A DNA stretch of 48,366 bases from Eubacteriales bacterium (GTDB taxonomy: Bacteria; Bacillota; Clostridia; Lachnospirales; Lachnospiraceae). A program made the position numbers and the translations under genes. How positions within the stretch are numbered: position 1 is the first letter of the stretch; each line of letters opens with the position of its first letter. The notes beneath the pieces were generated by a model, which saw only the letters and a list, made by a program, of their open reading frames with translations, did not search any database and was not told the origin of the DNA. Where the stretch lies: the NCBI GenBank assembly GCA_030526265.1, contig JAUNDE010000013.1, forward strand, positions 1 to 48,366, written 5' to 3'. Below, in pieces: positions 1 through 13,808 of this stretch.

Positions 1-49
1 AAAACGTACATTTTTATTTTCCACTTTTTGAGCATTTTTATATTGACAT

Positions 50-1124: not shown

Positions 1125-2360
1125 ATGAGAAGAAAAAAACATGGCTGTTTGAAAGGTATATTTGTTGCCAGTGTGGTGCTATGTATAATTCTGGCGTCGA
1201 TTATTATTATATTTTTGAAAATGGATATGTTAAAGTATCTGGATCAGACTGGAATTTCAATTTTTGAGAAAGTGCCATATCAGGAGACAAAAGAAGATAT
1301 AGAAGATAGTTCAGAGACAGGAGAAATCAAGTCTTTGTTTTATTATGAGTTGCTGTCAGATGAGGAAAAAATGGCATACCGGGAAATATCGACCGGGTTG
1401 GAAGAACAAAAGGATAATATTTACATTCATTGTGAGGAACCGGAAACAGCAAACCGTCTTTTGAGATATGTTCTTAGAGATAATCCACAGTATTTCTGGT
1501 GTGATGGGAGTTCAAGCACAACTTCATACGAAAAATTATTTGGGGAAGAGACATACAGTGTGATCACACCTGAATACAACTGTTCGAAGGAAGAACGTCT
1601 GGTAAAACAGAAGGAGATTGATGATTCGGTTTCAGAAATATTGCGCAATCTGCCATCAGGACAATCTGAATATGATAAAATACTGTTTATATATGAATAT
1701 GTGATAAATAATACCGATTATGATAAAGATGCCGCGGATAATCAGAATATTTACAGTGTATTTGTCCGACACGCATCCGTTTGTGCGGGTTATACCAAAT
1801 CTGTACAATATCTGCTGCAGAAAGTTGGCGTATACGCTGTCTATGTTACAGGAACAACAAAGGACGGAAGCCTTCATGCGTGGAATATTGTAAAATGCAA
1901 TGACAGATTCTACCATCTGGATGCTACATGGGGAGATCCCGTTTATCAGCAGACGGAAGAATTGAAGCCGACAGAGTTTGATAATATCACGTATGACTAT
2001 ATGTGCTGTGATGATGAAAATATTATGAAAACACATCAGCCGGATCGGGAGTATCCATATCCTGAGTGTGATTCGATGGAATACAACTACTATGTGGTGC
2101 AGGGAATGTATTACGATTATTACGATCGAAGTACTGTTCTTACAGTTATGAACAATACAATGTATGAAAGAAAAAATCCGACTGTTTTCAAATTTTCAAA
2201 CAGAGAGGCATATGTGCAGGCAAGAGATGCGATCATTCATGAGCTATATCAGATTACTGCACAAAATTTTTGCTTGTTTTATGGTATATCAGAAGCCAGA
2301 TTTTTTTATCAGGATGAAGATGAATTAAACAAATTTACGTTATATTGGGAATATCCGTAA
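1125..2360 (+). CDS. Membrane-anchored transglutaminase-like protein
   Basis: 411 residues. An N-terminal basic stretch (MRRKKHG) followed by a hydrophobic segment at residues ~10-32 predicts a single membrane anchor with the bulk outside the cell. The core is a transglutaminase-like (papain-fold) domain: the Cys220 motif 'HASVCAGY', His251 in 'LHAWN', and Asp266 in 'YHLDATWGDP' form the expected Cys-His-Asp triad. A C-terminal ~110 residues rich in Tyr and acidic residues follows. Members of this superfamily act as proteases, amidases or crosslinkers of cell-surface proteins; the substrate here cannot be told. It has its own promoter and no operon partner. The catalytic triad is directly visible; the cell-surface role is inference. 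Confidence 0.8.
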   Translation: MRRKKHGCLKGIFVASVVLCIILASIIIIFLKMDMLKYLDQTGISIFEKVPYQETKEDIEDSSETGEIKSLFYYELLSDEEKMAYREISTGLEEQKDNIYIHCEEPETANRLLRYVLRDNPQYFWCDGSSSTTSYEKLFGEETYSVITPEYNCSKEERLVKQKEIDDSVSEILRNLPSGQSEYDKILFIYEYVINNTDYDKDAADNQNIYSVFVRHASVCAGYTKSVQYLLQKVGVYAVYVTGTTKDGSLHAWNIVKCNDRFYHLDATWGDPVYQQTEELKPTEFDNITYDYMCCDDENIMKTHQPDREYPYPECDSMEYNYYVVQGMYYDYYDRSTVLTVMNNTMYERKNPTVFKFSNREAYVQARDAIIHELYQITAQNFCLFYGISEARFFYQDEDELNKFTLYWEYP

Positions 2361-7240: not shown

Positions 7241-8356
7241 TTAATCATTCAAAAGTTCTTGTAAGCAATTCAAGAGTCTTGTGTTATCTTCCGGATTCAT
7301 GATACAGAAGCGTATGTATTCACCATCGAGGCCTTTGAATGAGGAACAGTCCCGGATCATCATGCCTTGTTTGACTGCTGCCTCGAAAACATCATAAGAC
7401 GTCAGGTTTTCTTTTAAAATTCTTATTAGGATGAAGTTTGCATATGCAGGATATGTTTTGGCATATTTTAATAATTTTAATTCATTTATCATGCGTTCTC
7501 TTTCGGATAAGATCAGAGATCTTGTTTTCTGGAAAAACTCATGATCCTGAAGCATGATCTCCCCTGCTAAAGATGCAATGCTGTTTAAACTCCATGGATT
7601 CTGATATGTTTTTAATGTTTTTAAAAAAGATTCGTTGCTTGTGACTCCATAGCCCAGTCTCAGACCTGGAGCAGAATAAAATTTAGAAACACCGCGAATA
7701 ATCATAACATTATCAAATTGTTTTACTAATGACATTGCTGAAATTTCATTGATATCTGGTGCGAATTCAACGTATGTTTCATCAATCATGACAAATATAT
7801 TTTTTTCCTTTGCAATATGAAGCAGTGTAGTCAGCTCTTTTTTGTGAATTGCAGATGAAGTCGGATTGTTCGGATTACAGAGAATAATAAAATCGATATC
7901 TTCAGATATAGATTGAAACAGGTGATCAATATTGAGTTGAAAATTATCTGTTTCATTTAATTGATATTCTGAGATCACTCCGCCATTTAGCGAGAGTTCT
8001 CGCTCATATTCGGAATAAGTTGGTCCAATCAGAAGAGCGTGTTTTGCATTTCTGTGGCTGATAAGTAAGGATATTAATTCTGTTGATCCATTGCCTGTGA
8101 CAACATGATCCATATCAACTTTACAATAATCTGCGATCACCTTCCGAAGAGAGACATAGTCTCTGTCAGGGTATTCTGTGATGATATCGAGATTATCTGC
8201 GAGTCTTTTTTTAAGCGAATCTGATAAGCCGAGAGGGTTTACATTTGCACCGAATTTTACAATCTTTTCTTTTGGAATACGAAAATACTCGGAAATTTTT
8301 TCTATATCGCTTCCATGAAAAGCTGGAATTGATCTTGTTTTATTTTTTTCTGACAT
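7241..8356 (-). CDS. PLP-dependent class I/II aminotransferase, HisC/CobD-like
   Basis: 371 residues. Fold type I PLP enzyme: 'NPNNPT' (161-166), 'DETYVEF' (192-198, PLP pyridine-N Asp), and Schiff-base Lys225 in 'SKFYSAPGLRLGYG'; a C-terminal Arg in 'YIRFCIM' would bind the substrate carboxylate. The closest families are histidinol-phosphate aminotransferase and threonine-phosphate decarboxylase, which are hard to separate by eye. No his or cobalamin genes are nearby, so the substrate is unresolved. The start has an AGGAGAT Shine-Dalgarno 8 bases upstream. It is a single minus-strand gene, divergent from the 1098-residue gene at 8469. Confidence 0.85.
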   Translation of the reverse strand: MSEKNKTRSIPAFHGSDIEKISEYFRIPKEKIVKFGANVNPLGLSDSLKKRLADNLDIITEYPDRDYVSLRKVIADYCKVDMDHVVTGNGSTELISLLISHRNAKHALLIGPTYSEYERELSLNGGVISEYQLNETDNFQLNIDHLFQSISEDIDFIILCNPNNPTSSAIHKKELTTLLHIAKEKNIFVMIDETYVEFAPDINEISAMSLVKQFDNVMIIRGVSKFYSAPGLRLGYGVTSNESFLKTLKTYQNPWSLNSIASLAGEIMLQDHEFFQKTRSLILSERERMINELKLLKYAKTYPAYANFILIRILKENLTSYDVFEAAVKQGMMIRDCSSFKGLDGEYIRFCIMNPEDNTRLLNCLQELLND

Positions 8357-8388: not shown

Positions 8389-8418
8389 TTGCCATATTTA
8401 TAAAGGTAATGGTATAAT
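8389..8418 (+). promoter_or_regulatory. Promoter of the three-gene unknown cluster
   Basis: TTGCCA (8389-8394), 18-base spacer, TATAAT (8413-8418), about 50 bases before the proposed TTG start at 8469. Confidence 0.6.
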
Positions 8419-8454
8419 TTATTATAGTATGTTTACTAAAAAAAGCAATGCGAG

Positions 8455-8462
8455 AAGAGGTG
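8455..8462 (+). promoter_or_regulatory. Shine-Dalgarno indicating a TTG start
   Basis: GAAGAGGTG-type site ends 6 bases before the in-frame TTG at 8469. The first in-frame ATG (8448) is preceded only by CTAAAAAAAGCA, which has no Shine-Dalgarno, so TTG is the more likely start. Confidence 0.6.
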
Positions 8463-8468
8463 AATGGC

Positions 8469-11400
8469 TTGAAAAATAAAATAAAAAAATTCTCAAAAGG
8501 AGATTTTCAGTTCACAAGACCAGAAATTGTATTTCCTGAGACAAGCCTGATACTTACAATTGGCGAGGGAGAAATATATAAAGGATATTTCATGATCAAG
8601 AACAATGCTGAAGGAAAGATAAGGGGAATTGTCTATCCTTCATCTTTTCGTATGCGCTGTATAGAACAGGGATTTGAAGGGAATCCTGTCAAGGTTTCTT
8701 TCGAGTATGATGGTCGTGGGCTTCGACCGGGATTCGTTGAACATGGTGATTTTACGGTTGTCTGTACAGGAGGAGAATATCATCTTCCATTTACTGCAAT
8801 CATTGAAAAGCCTTATGTAATGACAAATTATGGAAAGGTTCAAAATACAGATGATTTTCGTAAATTAGCGATCAAGGATTATGCAGAGGCTCAAAAGCTG
8901 TTCAGATCACGTGAATTTTACGAAGTACTTAAGTATGAAGATAAACGCGTATTTTATCTGTATGATAATATGAGAAAATGGTCGCTTGGTGAACAGGCGA
9001 TGGAGGAATTTCTTGTTGGAATTAAACAAAAGGAATGTATTTTTCTGACACTTCCTGGAGAAGGAATGTATTTCGAAGACTTAAATGAAGTCACAAAAGG
9101 AATGATGTCAATACAAAAAAATACATGGGGATACATGCCAATTCAGATTAGCACTGAAGGTGATTTTCTGTTTGTTGGCAGATCAAAGATCACAACGGAT
9201 GATTTCATCGGCAATGTCTATCAGATGGAATTTTTGATCAATCCTGAGAAAATGCATGCAGGAAGAAATTTTGGAAAAATCTATTTTGAGACACCTTATG
9301 AGACTCTTGCGTATGATGTTGAGGTGATTCAGAATATTGAGTTTACAGAAAATCATAGAGAAATCGAGTTTTTAATGGCCCAGCTCTTAAAGGAATATAT
9401 TTCCATGACAGCCGGAAGAACAGAACTTGACAATTGGGTAGACAGTGCGAGTGAAAAGACAAAGAAAATGTGTCAATATGCACCGATGGACGAGTTCCTG
9501 CAATTATTACAGGCACATGTATATTATCGCGGGAATAGAATCGATGATGCGAAATGGATTTTGGAAAACTACAATTATAATCGTTTTGCTATTGGACAGG
9601 ATCCTGTCAGTAATGCCTATTATCTGTACCTGACAGCGAAAATCAGAGGGGCAGGGAGTCATGTTGAGCGGGCAATTGATGAAATCGGAAAGATATACCT
9701 CAGACACCAGGATTCTGTTATATTATTGTTGATTCTTCTTAATCTGGATCCACAATATAAGGATGTGAACCGAAGATTCAGGGCATTAGAACAACATTAT
9801 TATTCATATGAACCGAATGAGATTTTGTTTTTACTCGAAGCATATATGTGCATGAGTGAAAAAAATATCCTGTTAAAAAAATTGGGGAAATTTGAATTTG
9901 CCATTTTAAATTTTGCTGTAAAATATCGGATGCTTTCAAAAGAATTTGCGTTATATTTTGAAAATCTTGCCAGCCAGCAGAAGGTCTATAATCCGCTCTT
10001 GTTCCAGATTTTGAAAAAAACATACCAAATGTATCCGGAGACAATGATTTTAAATACAATCTGTACATTGTTGATCAAAGGAAATAAATTAGAACATAAG
10101 TATTTTGAATGGTATCAGAAAGCAGTTGATGCTGAATTAAAAATTGCTCAGTTATATGAGTATTATATGTCTACAATAGAAGAAGAGAATGTCAGAGAGG
10201 CGCTGCCAAGGTCGATATTCTTGTATTTTATGCATGGTAATAATTTGAATTATAAAAAGGCCGCACTGTTATATGCGAACCTTGTAACATATGAAGAATA
10301 TGCGAGTGATCTATCTATCAGTTACCGTGAGCAGATGGTTGCATTTGCATGGGATCAGCTTTTGAAGAGACACATCACCGAATCATTAAAAATATTGTAT
10401 AAAAAATTCTGTACGGAAGAAGAAATGACAGGTGAACGATTGGAGGCAATGAGAGATATCTGTCATGCATATGAAGTGAAAACAAAAGTACAGAACCTCA
10501 AATGTGTCCTTGTGATTGAAAAAGATGGTTCAATTATCCAGCGTGTTCCTATCAAAAAAGGACGGGCAGTTGTTTATCTGTATGACAAAGAAGCGAGGAT
10601 CATATGGGAAGGTATAAATGGATTACATTACACTGACTCTATTGCTTTTGAAACAAAACGTTTGTTTTATGAACCACGTTATCTTGATATGTGTAAAAAA
10701 TATATGTCAAGACTTTCGAACTGGACAAGTGAAGGAAATAAACCAGAAGTAAATGTGGAGAATATTAAACAGTTCGGAATACGTGTATTTGATATTAAGG
10801 ACGTATTCCAGTTTTGCAGTAAAAAAATCCGTGAAGATAATTATGATGAAGATGAATTTATGCTTTATCTTAGTTTTGAACTGTTTAAGAGGAAACAATT
10901 CGATAAAGTAACACTGAATTATCTTTCGAATTATTATTGCGGATCTACAAGAAATATGAAACTGTTATGGAGAGCTGCAAAAGAACATGAGATTCCTGTT
11001 TCAAAGCTTGGCGAAAAAATCATTACTCAAATGCTTTTCTCGGAGCAGATGATTGGAGAGGAAGCAATTTTTGTAGATTATTATCTGAACGGCAACCCGT
11101 ATTTTCGTTTGAAACAAGCATATCTTGCATATGTCTGTAAAGAATACTTTGTATATAATCGAGATACAGATGATGCAATTTTCCAGATTATTCTTAATGA
11201 AGAGTATCATGAAGAAGAATTGGCAGATATTTGTAAAATCGCGCTTTTGAAATATTTTTCTGATAAAGAAATTACTGAAAAAGCGGAACCTGTTTTGCAC
11301 AGATATATGATGGCATTGTGTGAGAAACAGATTGTTTTTCCGTTTTATTTAAAATTCAAAGAAGAATGGTTAAGAGAAATGCAGCTGTTTGATAAAACAA

Positions 11401-11765
11401 TGATCTCTTATCAGGCAGAACATGGCGGTAAAGTGAAAATTGTTTATAAAATGAAACATGGTGAGTATGAAGAATTGGGATATCAGTCAGAAGGATTGAC
11501 TCCGATGTACGCTAATATTTATGTAAAAGATTTTGTGCTTTTTGGAGATGATTCTGTAAAATATTCATTCCAGGAAGTGTGTGACAAGGATCAGACTTCC
11601 TACATACAGGACGAAAAAGTATTGAAGCAGGATAGAATCGTTCCGAAAATCGGAAAGTATGGAAAACTGTTTGCAATGTCAAAAATGGGAAGTGCGGAAC
11701 GCAAGCTTGAGATGATGAAATATGAGCAGGAATTACAATTTGCAGAGCAGATTTTTAAAGCTTAA
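8469..11765 (+). CDS. Large beta-domain/helical-repeat protein of unknown function (recalled as DUF5717-like)
   Basis: 1098 residues if started at TTG 8469 (1105 from ATG 8448). No signal peptide, membrane segment, Walker motif or catalytic motif is seen, so a cytoplasmic scaffold is likely. The N-terminal ~110 residues read as an Ig-like beta-sandwich ('YKGYFMIKNNAEGKIRG...HLPFTAIIEKPY'), and a second beta domain lies near residues 190-295. A long, Tyr/Leu-rich helical region resembling degenerate TPR or HEAT-like repeats spans ~310-660 and resumes at ~740-950. Beta segments recur near 665-725 and at the C terminus (~970-1060). I recall this family as DUF5717, neighbour of DUF5716, in Lachnospiraceae; this could not be checked. 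It is 20 bases upstream of the Hsp70-like gene and co-directional, suggesting one complex. Confidence 0.75.
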   Translation: MKNKIKKFSKGDFQFTRPEIVFPETSLILTIGEGEIYKGYFMIKNNAEGKIRGIVYPSSFRMRCIEQGFEGNPVKVSFEYDGRGLRPGFVEHGDFTVVCTGGEYHLPFTAIIEKPYVMTNYGKVQNTDDFRKLAIKDYAEAQKLFRSREFYEVLKYEDKRVFYLYDNMRKWSLGEQAMEEFLVGIKQKECIFLTLPGEGMYFEDLNEVTKGMMSIQKNTWGYMPIQISTEGDFLFVGRSKITTDDFIGNVYQMEFLINPEKMHAGRNFGKIYFETPYETLAYDVEVIQNIEFTENHREIEFLMAQLLKEYISMTAGRTELDNWVDSASEKTKKMCQYAPMDEFLQLLQAHVYYRGNRIDDAKWILENYNYNRFAIGQDPVSNAYYLYLTAKIRGAGSHVERAIDEIGKIYLRHQDSVILLLILLNLDPQYKDVNRRFRALEQHYYSYEPNEILFLLEAYMCMSEKNILLKKLGKFEFAILNFAVKYRMLSKEFALYFENLASQQKVYNPLLFQILKKTYQMYPETMILNTICTLLIKGNKLEHKYFEWYQKAVDAELKIAQLYEYYMSTIEEENVREALPRSIFLYFMHGNNLNYKKAALLYANLVTYEEYASDLSISYREQMVAFAWDQLLKRHITESLKILYKKFCTEEEMTGERLEAMRDICHAYEVKTKVQNLKCVLVIEKDGSIIQRVPIKKGRAVVYLYDKEARIIWEGINGLHYTDSIAFETKRLFYEPRYLDMCKKYMSRLSNWTSEGNKPEVNVENIKQFGIRVFDIKDVFQFCSKKIREDNYDEDEFMLYLSFELFKRKQFDKVTLNYLSNYYCGSTRNMKLLWRAAKEHEIPVSKLGEKIITQMLFSEQMIGEEAIFVDYYLNGNPYFRLKQAYLAYVCKEYFVYNRDTDDAIFQIILNEEYHEEELADICKIALLKYFSDKEITEKAEPVLHRYMMALCEKQIVFPFYLKFKEEWLREMQLFDKTMISYQAEHGGKVKIVYKMKHGEYEELGYQSEGLTPMYANIYVKDFVLFGDDSVKYSFQEVCDKDQTSYIQDEKVLKQDRIVPKIGKYGKLFAMSKMGSAERKLEMMKYEQELQFAEQIFKA

Positions 11766-11785
11766 GGCGAAGGAGGAAGTACCGG

Positions 11786-13069
11786 GTGAAAAGCGGTAAT
11801 ATACTTGGACTTGAACTGAATAATGATTTTTGTCAGATAAGTTATTATGACCGAGAAAAACACGAGCCAAAAACATTGGAAGTTTCCGTTGATAATTTTC
11901 AGATTCCACTTCTTCTTGGTTATTTTCAAGACAAATGGATCTATGGAAAAGAAGCAAAGAGATTACAGGAAGTAAGTGCGGAAAATGTGGTGACGGACTT
12001 GTACTCGAAAGCTCTGCATCAGGAAAAGGTTGAGATATGTGGTCAGGTGAAAGATGCTGTCTGGCTGCTCGCGAAGTATTTCCAGCTGGCACTTCATAAA
12101 TTTAAAAATATTTCTTTTTTGACATTTTCGGTTCCTGAAAGTAATATTGACGTAAGTAATATATTAAAAAGAATCGGAAATTATATTGGTGTTGCAAAAG
12201 AGTGTGTTTTTGTTCAGGATTTTAAAGAAAGCTTTTGCTATTATATGTTCTATCAACCAAAGGAATTGTGGCAGTATGAATCAGCTTTGTTCTATTGTGA
12301 CCGAAATGAAATTCGTGCTTACATGCTTCGCAGACTGAAAACGATCAGTGGCAGAGGTGCAGATATGTTTGTTACGGTAGATGAAGTAGCCAGTGCGAAA
12401 ATGAAGGAACTTGCTGCAGTTTATCCTGTTTTGAATGTTGATAAAGTAAAAGATGCTGATGAGCGTTTTAAAACATTTATTCAGGGAGTATTTGACAAAA
12501 AAGTCGTTTCGTCTGTTTTTTTGACAGGAGAGGGATTTGAAAACAACTGGTATCCGGCTTCTTTAAAAGTACTTTGTAATGGACGTCGTGCATTTATAGG
12601 AAATAATCTCTATAGTAAAGGGGCTTGCTATACATCGTATCACAAAGCAAAAGGTGAAGAAGATATGCCGATCTATCTGGACGGGACAAAAATGATGGAG
12701 CAGATTTGTCTGAGAATGCGTGTGCATGGAAAAGAAGGATGGTACCCGATCGTTGAATGGGGAAGTCACTGGTATGAATCCGATGGACAGTGGGAAGTAC
12801 TGTTAGAAGACAAATCTGATATAGAGATTCATATTGAGTCGCTTGCAACAGGAGAATTGCAGGCAGAAACAGTTTCTTTGGAAGGACTTCCAAATCGAAA
12901 AGATTATGCATTACGTCTTGCGATTGAGACAATGTTTTTAGATGATAGAACCTGCAAGATTTCTTTTAGAGATATAGGGTTCGGAGAATTCTTCCCTTCA
13001 TCTGGTTTCGAGGTGGAGAAAACAATTCATTTAGGAGGAAGCAATGGGCAGTTTAATTCTCTGTCATAA
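11786..13069 (+). CDS. Degenerate Hsp70/actin-fold (ASKHA) protein, recalled as DUF5716-like
   Basis: 427 residues from a GTG start with AGGAGG 9 bases upstream. The layout follows Hsp70: an opening strand 'ILGLELNNDFCQISYY' (phosphate-1 position), 'IPLLLGYFQDKWIYGKEAKR' like the IPS..F....VG..AKR stretch of DnaK, 'ISFLTFSVPE' like 'AVITVPA', and 'VFLTGEGFENN..P' (residues 244-256) like the adenosine motif. Residues ~340-405 resemble the Hsp70 substrate-binding beta domain ('LEGLPNR...IETMFLDDRTCKISFRDIGFGE'). The Gly-rich phosphate-2 loop (DLGGGT in DnaK) is replaced by YCDRNE at 170-175, so ATPase activity is doubtful. The homology is inferred by eye. It overlaps the next gene by 26 bases. 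Confidence 0.7.
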   Translation: MKSGNILGLELNNDFCQISYYDREKHEPKTLEVSVDNFQIPLLLGYFQDKWIYGKEAKRLQEVSAENVVTDLYSKALHQEKVEICGQVKDAVWLLAKYFQLALHKFKNISFLTFSVPESNIDVSNILKRIGNYIGVAKECVFVQDFKESFCYYMFYQPKELWQYESALFYCDRNEIRAYMLRRLKTISGRGADMFVTVDEVASAKMKELAAVYPVLNVDKVKDADERFKTFIQGVFDKKVVSSVFLTGEGFENNWYPASLKVLCNGRRAFIGNNLYSKGACYTSYHKAKGEEDMPIYLDGTKMMEQICLRMRVHGKEGWYPIVEWGSHWYESDGQWEVLLEDKSDIEIHIESLATGELQAETVSLEGLPNRKDYALRLAIETMFLDDRTCKISFRDIGFGEFFPSSGFEVEKTIHLGGSNGQFNSLS

Positions 13070-13808
13070 AAAAAAGGCAAAACATCCATATGAAATCTCA
13101 AGAATTCATATGCATATTTATACAATTGAAGAGCTATGCTATTATTTCTGTAATAATCTTTATCTTGTGGATTGTACGATCATTAATCATCAGCTGTGTG
13201 ATTGGATTGATGAAGAGCTGGATCTTTATGAACTAGCAGCAGAGCTTCGCAATCTTTTAGAACAAAACGCTTCGAATGAACAGTTTATTTTGACTGTCTT
13301 GAGTTATGATTCGATTTATTCAGCGGCAGAGATCACAAAGATTCATAATGTGCTGGAGAGATTAAAAAATCAAAATGAAGTAGAACGTGAGAAATACAAG
13401 GCTGATAATTTGCTGAATTCAGATGAGTACTCATCTGCTATTTTGGTCTACCAGTCCATTGTAAATAAAGAGTGGGATGAATCAATAGGAAAAGAATTCT
13501 ACGGAAGAGTATATGGATGTTTGGGTGCGGCATACGGAAGAATGTTTTTGTATGAAGAAGCTGCCAGAATGTATGAAAAAGCAGTTGAAATATGTAAAGA
13601 AGAAAAATATATGAAAGCATTTCATTACTGTTGCTATCGTTATATGACAGAGACAGAATATACAAAAATGTTGTCAAAGGATCCAATATACCTTGCATTG
13701 AACACAGAATTGAAAGAGGAAATCAACCTGGCAAATGAAAAAGCTGATTTCAACATTTCTGACGAGTGTTTTGAACAGTGGAAAAAAGAATATCGAAAGA
13801 TTGATTAA
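13044..13808 (+). CDS. TPR-like protein of the Hsp70-like cluster
   Basis: 254 residues, starting inside the end of the preceding gene with AGGAGG 5-7 bases upstream, so translation is probably coupled. The N-terminal half (residues ~25-115) is helical and begins 'IYTIEELCYYFCNNLYLVD', not matching a family I know. Residues ~115-200 look like two or three TPR helices ('EFYGRVYGCLGAAYGRMFLYEEAARMYEKAVEICKEEKYM'). TPR proteins commonly act as Hsp70 partners, so a co-chaperone or adaptor role for the neighbour is a reasonable inference, not shown. No signal peptide or membrane segment. purB follows 38 bases downstream with no terminator between. Confidence 0.7.
   Translation: MGSLILCHKKKAKHPYEISRIHMHIYTIEELCYYFCNNLYLVDCTIINHQLCDWIDEELDLYELAAELRNLLEQNASNEQFILTVLSYDSIYSAAEITKIHNVLERLKNQNEVEREKYKADNLLNSDEYSSAILVYQSIVNKEWDESIGKEFYGRVYGCLGAAYGRMFLYEEAARMYEKAVEICKEEKYMKAFHYCCYRYMTETEYTKMLSKDPIYLALNTELKEEINLANEKADFNISDECFEQWKKEYRKID

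Follow-up and report, generated by a model that had tools for sequence, protein, structure and literature searches.

A conserved three-gene cluster of Lachnospiraceae with a degenerate Hsp70 at its centre appears to be the reduced form of a larger four-Hsp70 locus

The stretch of DNA analysed here, called the window, comprises the 48,366 nucleotides of contig JAUNDE010000013.1 (positions 1 to 48,366, GenBank assembly GCA_030526265.1) from a Eubacteriales bacterium of the family Lachnospiraceae, and it carries a cluster of three genes, denoted A, B and C. Profile comparisons indicate that B is a degenerate Hsp70 that has lost most of its ATP-site residues, and that the cluster corresponds to a larger locus of related families in the same order, in which four Hsp70 paralogues stand together with a GrpE-domain protein. 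The three-gene form appears to have arisen by reduction, through the dropping of three ATP-competent Hsp70s and GrpE. The three genes are as follows:

8469..11765, forward strand: gene A, a DUF5717 protein of 1098 amino acids (aa) from a TTG start, or 1105 aa from the ATG at 8448
11786..13069, forward strand: gene B, a DUF5716 protein read as a degenerate Hsp70, 427 aa, GTG start
13044..13808, forward strand: gene C, a tetratricopeptide-repeat (TPR) protein of 254 aa, called from its open reading frame (ORF) and weak TPR matches

The original prediction had described B, by eye, as a degenerate Hsp70, and profile comparison bears this out. Aligned to DnaK with hhalign, the B profile gave E 9.7e-8 and a probability of 94.3 over 388 columns, which span the nucleotide-binding domain (NBD) and the beta part of the substrate-binding domain (SBD-beta). 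Against two of the four paralogues of the larger locus it gave 4.2e-26 (Hsp70-3) and 1.5e-58 over 420 columns (Hsp70-2), and Hsp70-2 in its turn matches DnaK structures at 1.7e-19 with both NBD and SBD-beta covered. When a profile of 17 B proteins was searched against the PDB, six DnaK sequences came out on top (E 2.9e-5 to 0.011), the next match being unrelated at 0.26.

The degeneration of B is most evident in its ATP site. All 16 positions examined are kept in DnaK, and all except R345 in Hsp70-1 and Hsp70-4; Hsp70-3 likewise keeps all except R345, with N13 present in 15 of 18. The B protein of the window retains one of the 16. Among 19 B proteins, which include one from a genome (G637) filed in another family, each of T11, T12, K70, E171, G196, G198, T199, G342 and R345 is kept in none, while the first seven of these are all kept in 10 of 10 DnaK, 16 of 16 Hsp70-1, 18 of 18 Hsp70-3 and 17 of 17 Hsp70-4 sequences. 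Hsp70-2 is already degenerate, having lost most ATP-site positions (T12, K70, G198 and T199 are found in 0 of 19), and unlike B it retains subdomain IIB. In B, subdomain IIB is missing (occupancy 0.00-0.05 at columns about 191-260 of the DnaK of the window genome), as is the SBD-alpha lid (occupancy 0.00-0.01 beyond DnaK column 500). With nearly all ATP-site residues, IIB and the lid gone, it is improbable that B acts as a normal chaperone driven by ATP. By alignment offset, the columns absent from B also cover the IIB helix that GrpE contacts, and since GrpE acts by gripping and rotating IIB according to excerpts of PMC10825016, the loss of IIB fits the loss of a dedicated GrpE. What B has kept is an SBD-beta-like part:

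12683..13033, forward strand: SBD-beta-like part of B (about residues 300-416), carrying a near-invariant D-x-G-F-G, delimited by hhalign to the Hsp70 paralogues and DnaK and by conservation

Together with a G-x-G-F loop, this D-x-G-F-G is among the most constrained residues of B, and for that reason we place the probable working surfaces of the protein at these two sites.

In related families of the same order, the corresponding locus has seven to eight genes that encode DUF5717, four Hsp70 paralogues, a GrpE-domain protein and a TPR protein. Hsp70-1, a helical protein fused to GrpE, Hsp70-2, Hsp70-3 and Hsp70-4 are complete and in this order in 16 of 19 loci, some of which have small extra ORFs. 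DUF5717 is found in 16 of the 19, either as two genes or apparently as one fused gene (L070, L073), and the TPR protein also in 16. No TPR protein was recognised in the gene map of L071; two loci (L077, L078) are interrupted by contig ends, and a third (L068, genome G490) has only the helical protein and Hsp70-2 in place, with further HSP70 matches on other contigs. The GrpE domain lies at the C-terminus of the helical protein (Pfam 1.4e-14 and 4.4e-7 in the two proteins scanned; 2.8e-5 for the profile against GrpE in PDB 4ani). The one Hsp70-4 protein scanned carries a fused VWA domain, and the D-x-T-x-S residues of this domain, which we take to be its metal ion-dependent adhesion site (MIDAS), are invariant in ten.

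In Lachnospiraceae, A, B and C make up the locus, from which the three ATP-competent Hsp70s and GrpE are absent. The genome-wide number of GrpE matches above cut-off follows the same pattern: exactly one in 19 of 19 Lachnospiraceae (two of them with a second match below cut-off), at least two in all 16 genomes that carry the larger locus, and one in 12 of 12 members of the order without a B-type match. A profile of the larger DUF5717 piece of the related families (A12) matched 15 of 291 genomes sampled from the class, ten of them Lachnospiraceae; the other five matches lie outside the order, are weak (E 3.2e-9 to 2.5e-4) and short (about 80-160 residues), and are read as TPR cross-matches. Genome G642 (7.7 Mb, family f82) has 19 HSP70 stretches and, on contigs C23, C205 and C361, additional GrpE-like matches within frames of 975, 280 and 746 aa, which suggests further multi-Hsp70 clusters there.

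The larger locus also bears on whether the complex does chaperone work at all. Hsp70 NBD and actin share a common fold, A is very large, and a fixed brick needs no nucleotide hydrolysis; A-B-C could thus be imagined as a structural or cytoskeletal scaffold with B as an actin-fold brick. However, a recognisable SBD-beta is retained in B, and the GrpE domain and three ATP-competent Hsp70s of the larger locus point to chaperone work. We consider the actin-fold scaffold quite improbable.

In a tree of 74 Hsp70-type rows, limited in number per group, the B proteins form one clade (SH-aLRT 100) that stands next to the Hsp70-2 of genome G489 (99). Thus B groups, as far as its sequence tells, with the paralogue that is already degenerate. 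The locus of G489 (L065, family f81) still has the other parts of the larger locus; its GrpE protein is shortened to 279 aa, its Hsp70-2 is sister to B, and its Hsp70-4 lies in two frames. It is possible that L065 represents an intermediate of the reduction. A broader proposal is that an ATP-free pseudo-Hsp70 complex marks the whole family Lachnospiraceae and is the remnant of a four-Hsp70 engine with its exchange factor, which survives in related families; motors and exchange factor would have been lost together, and a strongly constrained scaffold function kept. We advance this proposal tentatively, judging its chances to fall a little short of even.

The cluster is widespread within the family. 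The B profile was found in 195 of 200 genera sampled from Lachnospiraceae, and of the five genera without it three still have A, whole or in pieces, which in two cases sits right where a contig begins. In the class sample, B was detected in 10 of 291 genomes, all Lachnospiraceae, and A in 11 (the ten B-positive genomes and one below cut-off); in a sample of the phylum, A was detected in 4 of 249, again all Lachnospiraceae. Sampling of the order gave a B-type match in 89 of 196 genomes (82 over cut-off), 22 inside the family and 67 outside it. Most of those outside have at least two weaker stretches, usually within frames some 475-630 aa long; one (G637, with 5% contamination) has a single family-like B match.

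The three genes also stay together. The original prediction had proposed a survey of linkage outside this genome, and linkage proved to hold there. The search retained 80 relatives, most of them titled as Lachnospiraceae or as a genus of that family (Dorea, Mediterraneibacter, Faecalicatena, Coprococcus and others), and in 72 of the 80 ORF calling gave the order A-B-C. In the other eight, tblastn located all three in order in six, and contig ends lie beside B in the remaining two (L143, L147). Eighteen loci from various genera of the family could be used, and in 17 of them A, B and C are adjacent; in L057, the eighteenth, tblastn places B between A and C. L055 and L056, 1-kb stretches at placeholder coordinates, were unused. 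In one of the six relatives whose gene order came from tblastn, [Ruminococcus] faecis JCM 15917 (L165), A is split into ORFs of 630 and 475 aa, by an assembly error or a real break.

A, B and C are under purifying selection. The median ratio of nonsynonymous to synonymous substitution rates (dN/dS) was 0.040 for A (16 pairs), 0.022 for B (29) and 0.043 for C (31), with maxima of 0.088, 0.098 and 0.210, in non-independent pairs of list neighbours among close relatives with 0.1<dS<1.5. Only such pairs were used because most comparisons with the window saturate dS, which came out finite for 0 of 72 A, 7 of 77 B and 2 of 75 C; the finite comparisons gave medians of 0.113 for B and 0.131 for C. Alignments are subsets that, besides the window, draw on 49 of the 80 loci for B and on 44 for A; A proteins shorter than 1085 aa (alignment) or 1050 aa (dN/dS) and ORFs running off contigs were left out.

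This distribution speaks to two other explanations. Many Lachnospiraceae form spores, and the cluster might in principle be a factor for sporulation alone. Among 44 family genomes searched, however, 14 are without Spo0A and 13 of these have B, and conversely G029, a genome without A and B, has Spo0A. With B carried by 13 of 14 family genomes that lack Spo0A, an exclusive role in sporulation is rejected, and we give it practically no credence.

A conflict system of the GAP1-N2 kind (Kaur et al. 2020) would share a similar parts list. As described in excerpts of PMC7159879, some GAP1-N2 GTPase systems, those of the second theme, combine HSP70, GrpE, an HSP70 without a peptide-binding domain and FNIII-TPR proteins. 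The presence of B in nearly every sampled genus nevertheless argues against a conflict role. The gene maps show no recognised recurrent extra component or GTPase, the neighbours not having been profiled for GTPase or GAP1. PADLOC gave 0 matches for A, B and C, and for the larger locus only a general TPR model and the candidate Hsp70/TPR models PDC-M61B and PDC-M71B, which stand for no named system. No plasmid matched A, the query used there in place of B. In the phage collection B had five matches, and the two best carry A, B and C together. These two, L190 (MT835719.1, with a partial A) and L191 (MT835486.1), are unannotated 'Bacteriophage sp.' records, one of which also encodes a ValS 69% identical to the ValS of L075, one of the larger loci; with A, B and C together, and ValS in one, they look like misfiled Lachnospiraceae chromosome. 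We disfavour the GAP1-N2 explanation as very improbable.

For A and B the original prediction had given the names DUF5717 and DUF5716, and these turned out to be correct, with Pfam profiles above the gathering score: A matches PF18984 (E 1.6e-198) and PF18983 (E 6e-86) with 662 and 289 bits against a cut-off of 25, and B matches PF18980 (E 3e-102) with 342 bits against 34.7. Both are families of unknown function according to the Pfam descriptions, and none of A, B and C has a model in NCBIfam. Two stretches in the N-terminal part of A resemble each other (hhalign probability 91.9, P 7e-7, 51 columns); by eye they appear to be beta-sandwiches, with the remainder of A helical. A PDB search with aligned A proteins gave no convincing structure, the best match being a TPR protein at E 0.024. 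For C, the TPR matches of the window protein alone all fall below Pfam cut-offs. A profile of 16 C proteins matches TPR proteins, among them engineered repeats (5.3e-34) and bacterial kinesin light chain (3.5e-8), and the earlier description of C as TPR-like thereby stands. The domains are located as follows:

8529..8819, forward strand: first of the two related N-terminal stretches of A (residues 28-124 of the 1105-aa frame), a beta-sandwich by eye
9060..9335, forward strand: second related N-terminal stretch of A (residues 205-296 of the 1105-aa frame), from hhalign
13380..13613, forward strand: TPR region of C (about residues 113-190), from the profile of 16 C proteins

We propose that A, B and C form one ATP-independent scaffold or holdase, reduced from the larger locus and loosely like fungal Ssz1, a proposal whose chances we regard as evenly balanced. 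A would serve as the frame, with its two related N-terminal domains and a long, probably helical part. B would be a pseudo-Hsp70 fixed in one state, the remnant of its NBD acting as a docking surface and its SBD-beta, with the near-invariant D-x-G-F-G, holding a segment of A, of C or of a client; C would be a TPR adaptor. The complex might then assemble or hold a housekeeping client, the part of B resembling that of Ssz1 in the fungal ribosome-associated triad. The suggestion of a 'dedicated chaperone or assembly machine', made when the cluster was first noticed, thus stands in part: the locus of related families does have four Hsp70 paralogues and a GrpE-domain protein, but the form in the window has lost the engine, with nearly all ATP-site residues, IIB and the lid missing from B.

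Alternatively, A-B-C may dock onto the ordinary DnaK-GrpE system, with B as an allosteric partner in the manner of Sse or Ssz1 and with DnaK replacing the lost Hsp70s. All 47 genomes searched have a GrpE over cut-off and an HSP70 match of E 1.2e-195 or better. Eukaryotic Hsp70-family partners keep IIB and the ATP-site residues; from B, IIB and nearly all ATP-site residues are gone, which counts against docking. Nor was a J-domain found in A, B and C of the window or in the eight proteins of the larger locus L075 (for the L075 TPR protein, among the best 25 of 32 families). In favour of docking, fungal atypical Hsp70s work by pairing with a canonical Hsp70, according to excerpts of PMC8476630. 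On balance we find docking onto DnaK unlikely, though not negligibly so.

Several observations weigh against the reading of the cluster as a reduced, ATP-independent complex. As a single sequence, the B of the window gave no Pfam HSP70 (PF00012) match up to E 1, and in the PDB it found no Hsp70, its best match being at E 0.18. Some ATP-site positions are retained among the B proteins (D8 in 16 of 19, D194 in 10 of 19, G341 in 19 of 19), so that some of them may bind nucleotide weakly. The tree comes from a quick search with a midpoint root and has several long branches; Hsp70-2 is not one group on it, and 2 of 19 B proteins have Hsp70-3 as their best BLAST match. The direction of change, reduction rather than growth, is judged from the degeneracy of B and its place beside Hsp70-2. 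Genomes of the family hold 2-7 HSP70 stretches, some of which may be relocated Hsp70-1, -3 or -4. Two of the 200 sampled genera (G029 and G091) are without both A and B, and the cluster is therefore not strictly required. The dN/dS pairs are not independent of one another, it is linkage alone that suggests a physical association of A, B and C, and the analogy to Ssz1 is loose because Ssz1 still binds ATP.

The layout of the cluster agrees with that first reported for it. ORFs at 8448..11765 (1105 aa from the first ATG), 11786..13069 and 13044..13808 put A, B and C head to tail, with the expected 20-base gap between A and B and 26-base overlap between B and C. In each of the 73 relatives with calls for both ORFs, B and C overlap, the overlap being 26 or 29 bases long in 70 of them, and we suspect translational coupling. 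For A the 1098-aa start proposed earlier is the better one: a start motif was found in 68 of 69 relatives examined, and we prefer the TTG at 8469 because TTG is the start in 65 of those 68, where it is preceded by a GAAGAGGTG-like sequence. A single promoter for the cluster had also been predicted. Promoter-like sites in the window number 36 against 36.0 expected, which leaves the site at 8389-8418 at chance level when taken alone. Its conservation is what supports it, as 65 of 69 relatives have TTGN3-16..19-TATAAT in the 250 bases that precede A, versus 6 of 696 coding control windows. The remaining features are:

13044..13069, forward strand: 26-base overlap of B and C, recurring in relatives
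8389..8418, forward strand: putative cluster promoter TTGCCA-18-TATAAT with TG before the -10 (11 of 12 positions match), recurring upstream of A in relatives
7241..8356, reverse strand: CobD/HisC-like aminotransferase by profile scores, divergent from the cluster and a neighbour in some loci of each form, three-gene and larger

This aminotransferase scores best to CobD (275 bits, below the cut-off of 290.6) and then to HisC. A CobD/HisC-like gene lies directly beside A in 8 of 18 family loci; 29 of 66 close relatives have one no more than two genes upstream of A, and 6 of the 7 larger loci with that side visible have one upstream (L064, L066 and L070-L073; not L065). Such a recurring neighbour supports, without proving, one chromosomal place for both forms of the locus. 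Elsewhere in the window, positions 1125-2360 (forward strand) encode a protein of 411 aa that matches a model for transglutaminase-related lipoproteins in part and far below its threshold (78 bits against a cut-off of 450), and an Rfam search of the window at gathering thresholds gave no match.

Lachnospiraceae are prominent gut bacteria. If the proposal is true, the cluster would provide a bacterial counterpart of the eukaryotic atypical Hsp70s, and DUF5716 and DUF5717 would gain a testable identity. The related families would then offer a comparison made by nature, between loci of one kind with and without motors and exchange factor. This raises the question of which client could require a dedicated machine of four Hsp70s in one family, yet in another no more than its silent subunit. 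Among the literature matches listed, none describes the three-gene cluster or the four-Hsp70 locus. Excerpts of PMC8215388 name DnaK, HscA and HscC as prokaryotic Hsp70 types, and those of PMC11019930 mention neither Clostridia nor Lachnospiraceae. The nearest parts list that we found described is the second theme of the GAP1-N2 systems, in the excerpts of PMC7159879.

Compared with known systems, A and B are members of the DUF5717 and DUF5716 Pfam entries, and it is the present comparisons that connect them with Hsp70 and with the larger locus. The GAP1-N2 systems are GTPase-centred, predicted conflict systems in the excerpts of PMC7159879, whereas B is found in nearly all sampled genera. The DnaK-GrpE system resembles ours in that B is related to the NBD and SBD-beta of DnaK and in that the larger locus has a GrpE domain of its own. 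It differs from the larger locus, which has four Hsp70 paralogues, one degenerate and one fused to VWA, and from the Lachnospiraceae locus, which is without an ATP-competent Hsp70 or exchange factor. Closest in kind to B may be Ssz1, likewise an atypical Hsp70 with an SBD-beta-like part and no lid; in the excerpts of PMC8476630 it has SBD-beta without SBD-alpha, shows little or no hydrolysis, yet binds ATP, and is held in one state, bound to partner proteins. Ssz1 differs in being eukaryotic, ATP-binding and paired with a J-domain partner, whereas B has lost IIB together with most residues of the ATP site.

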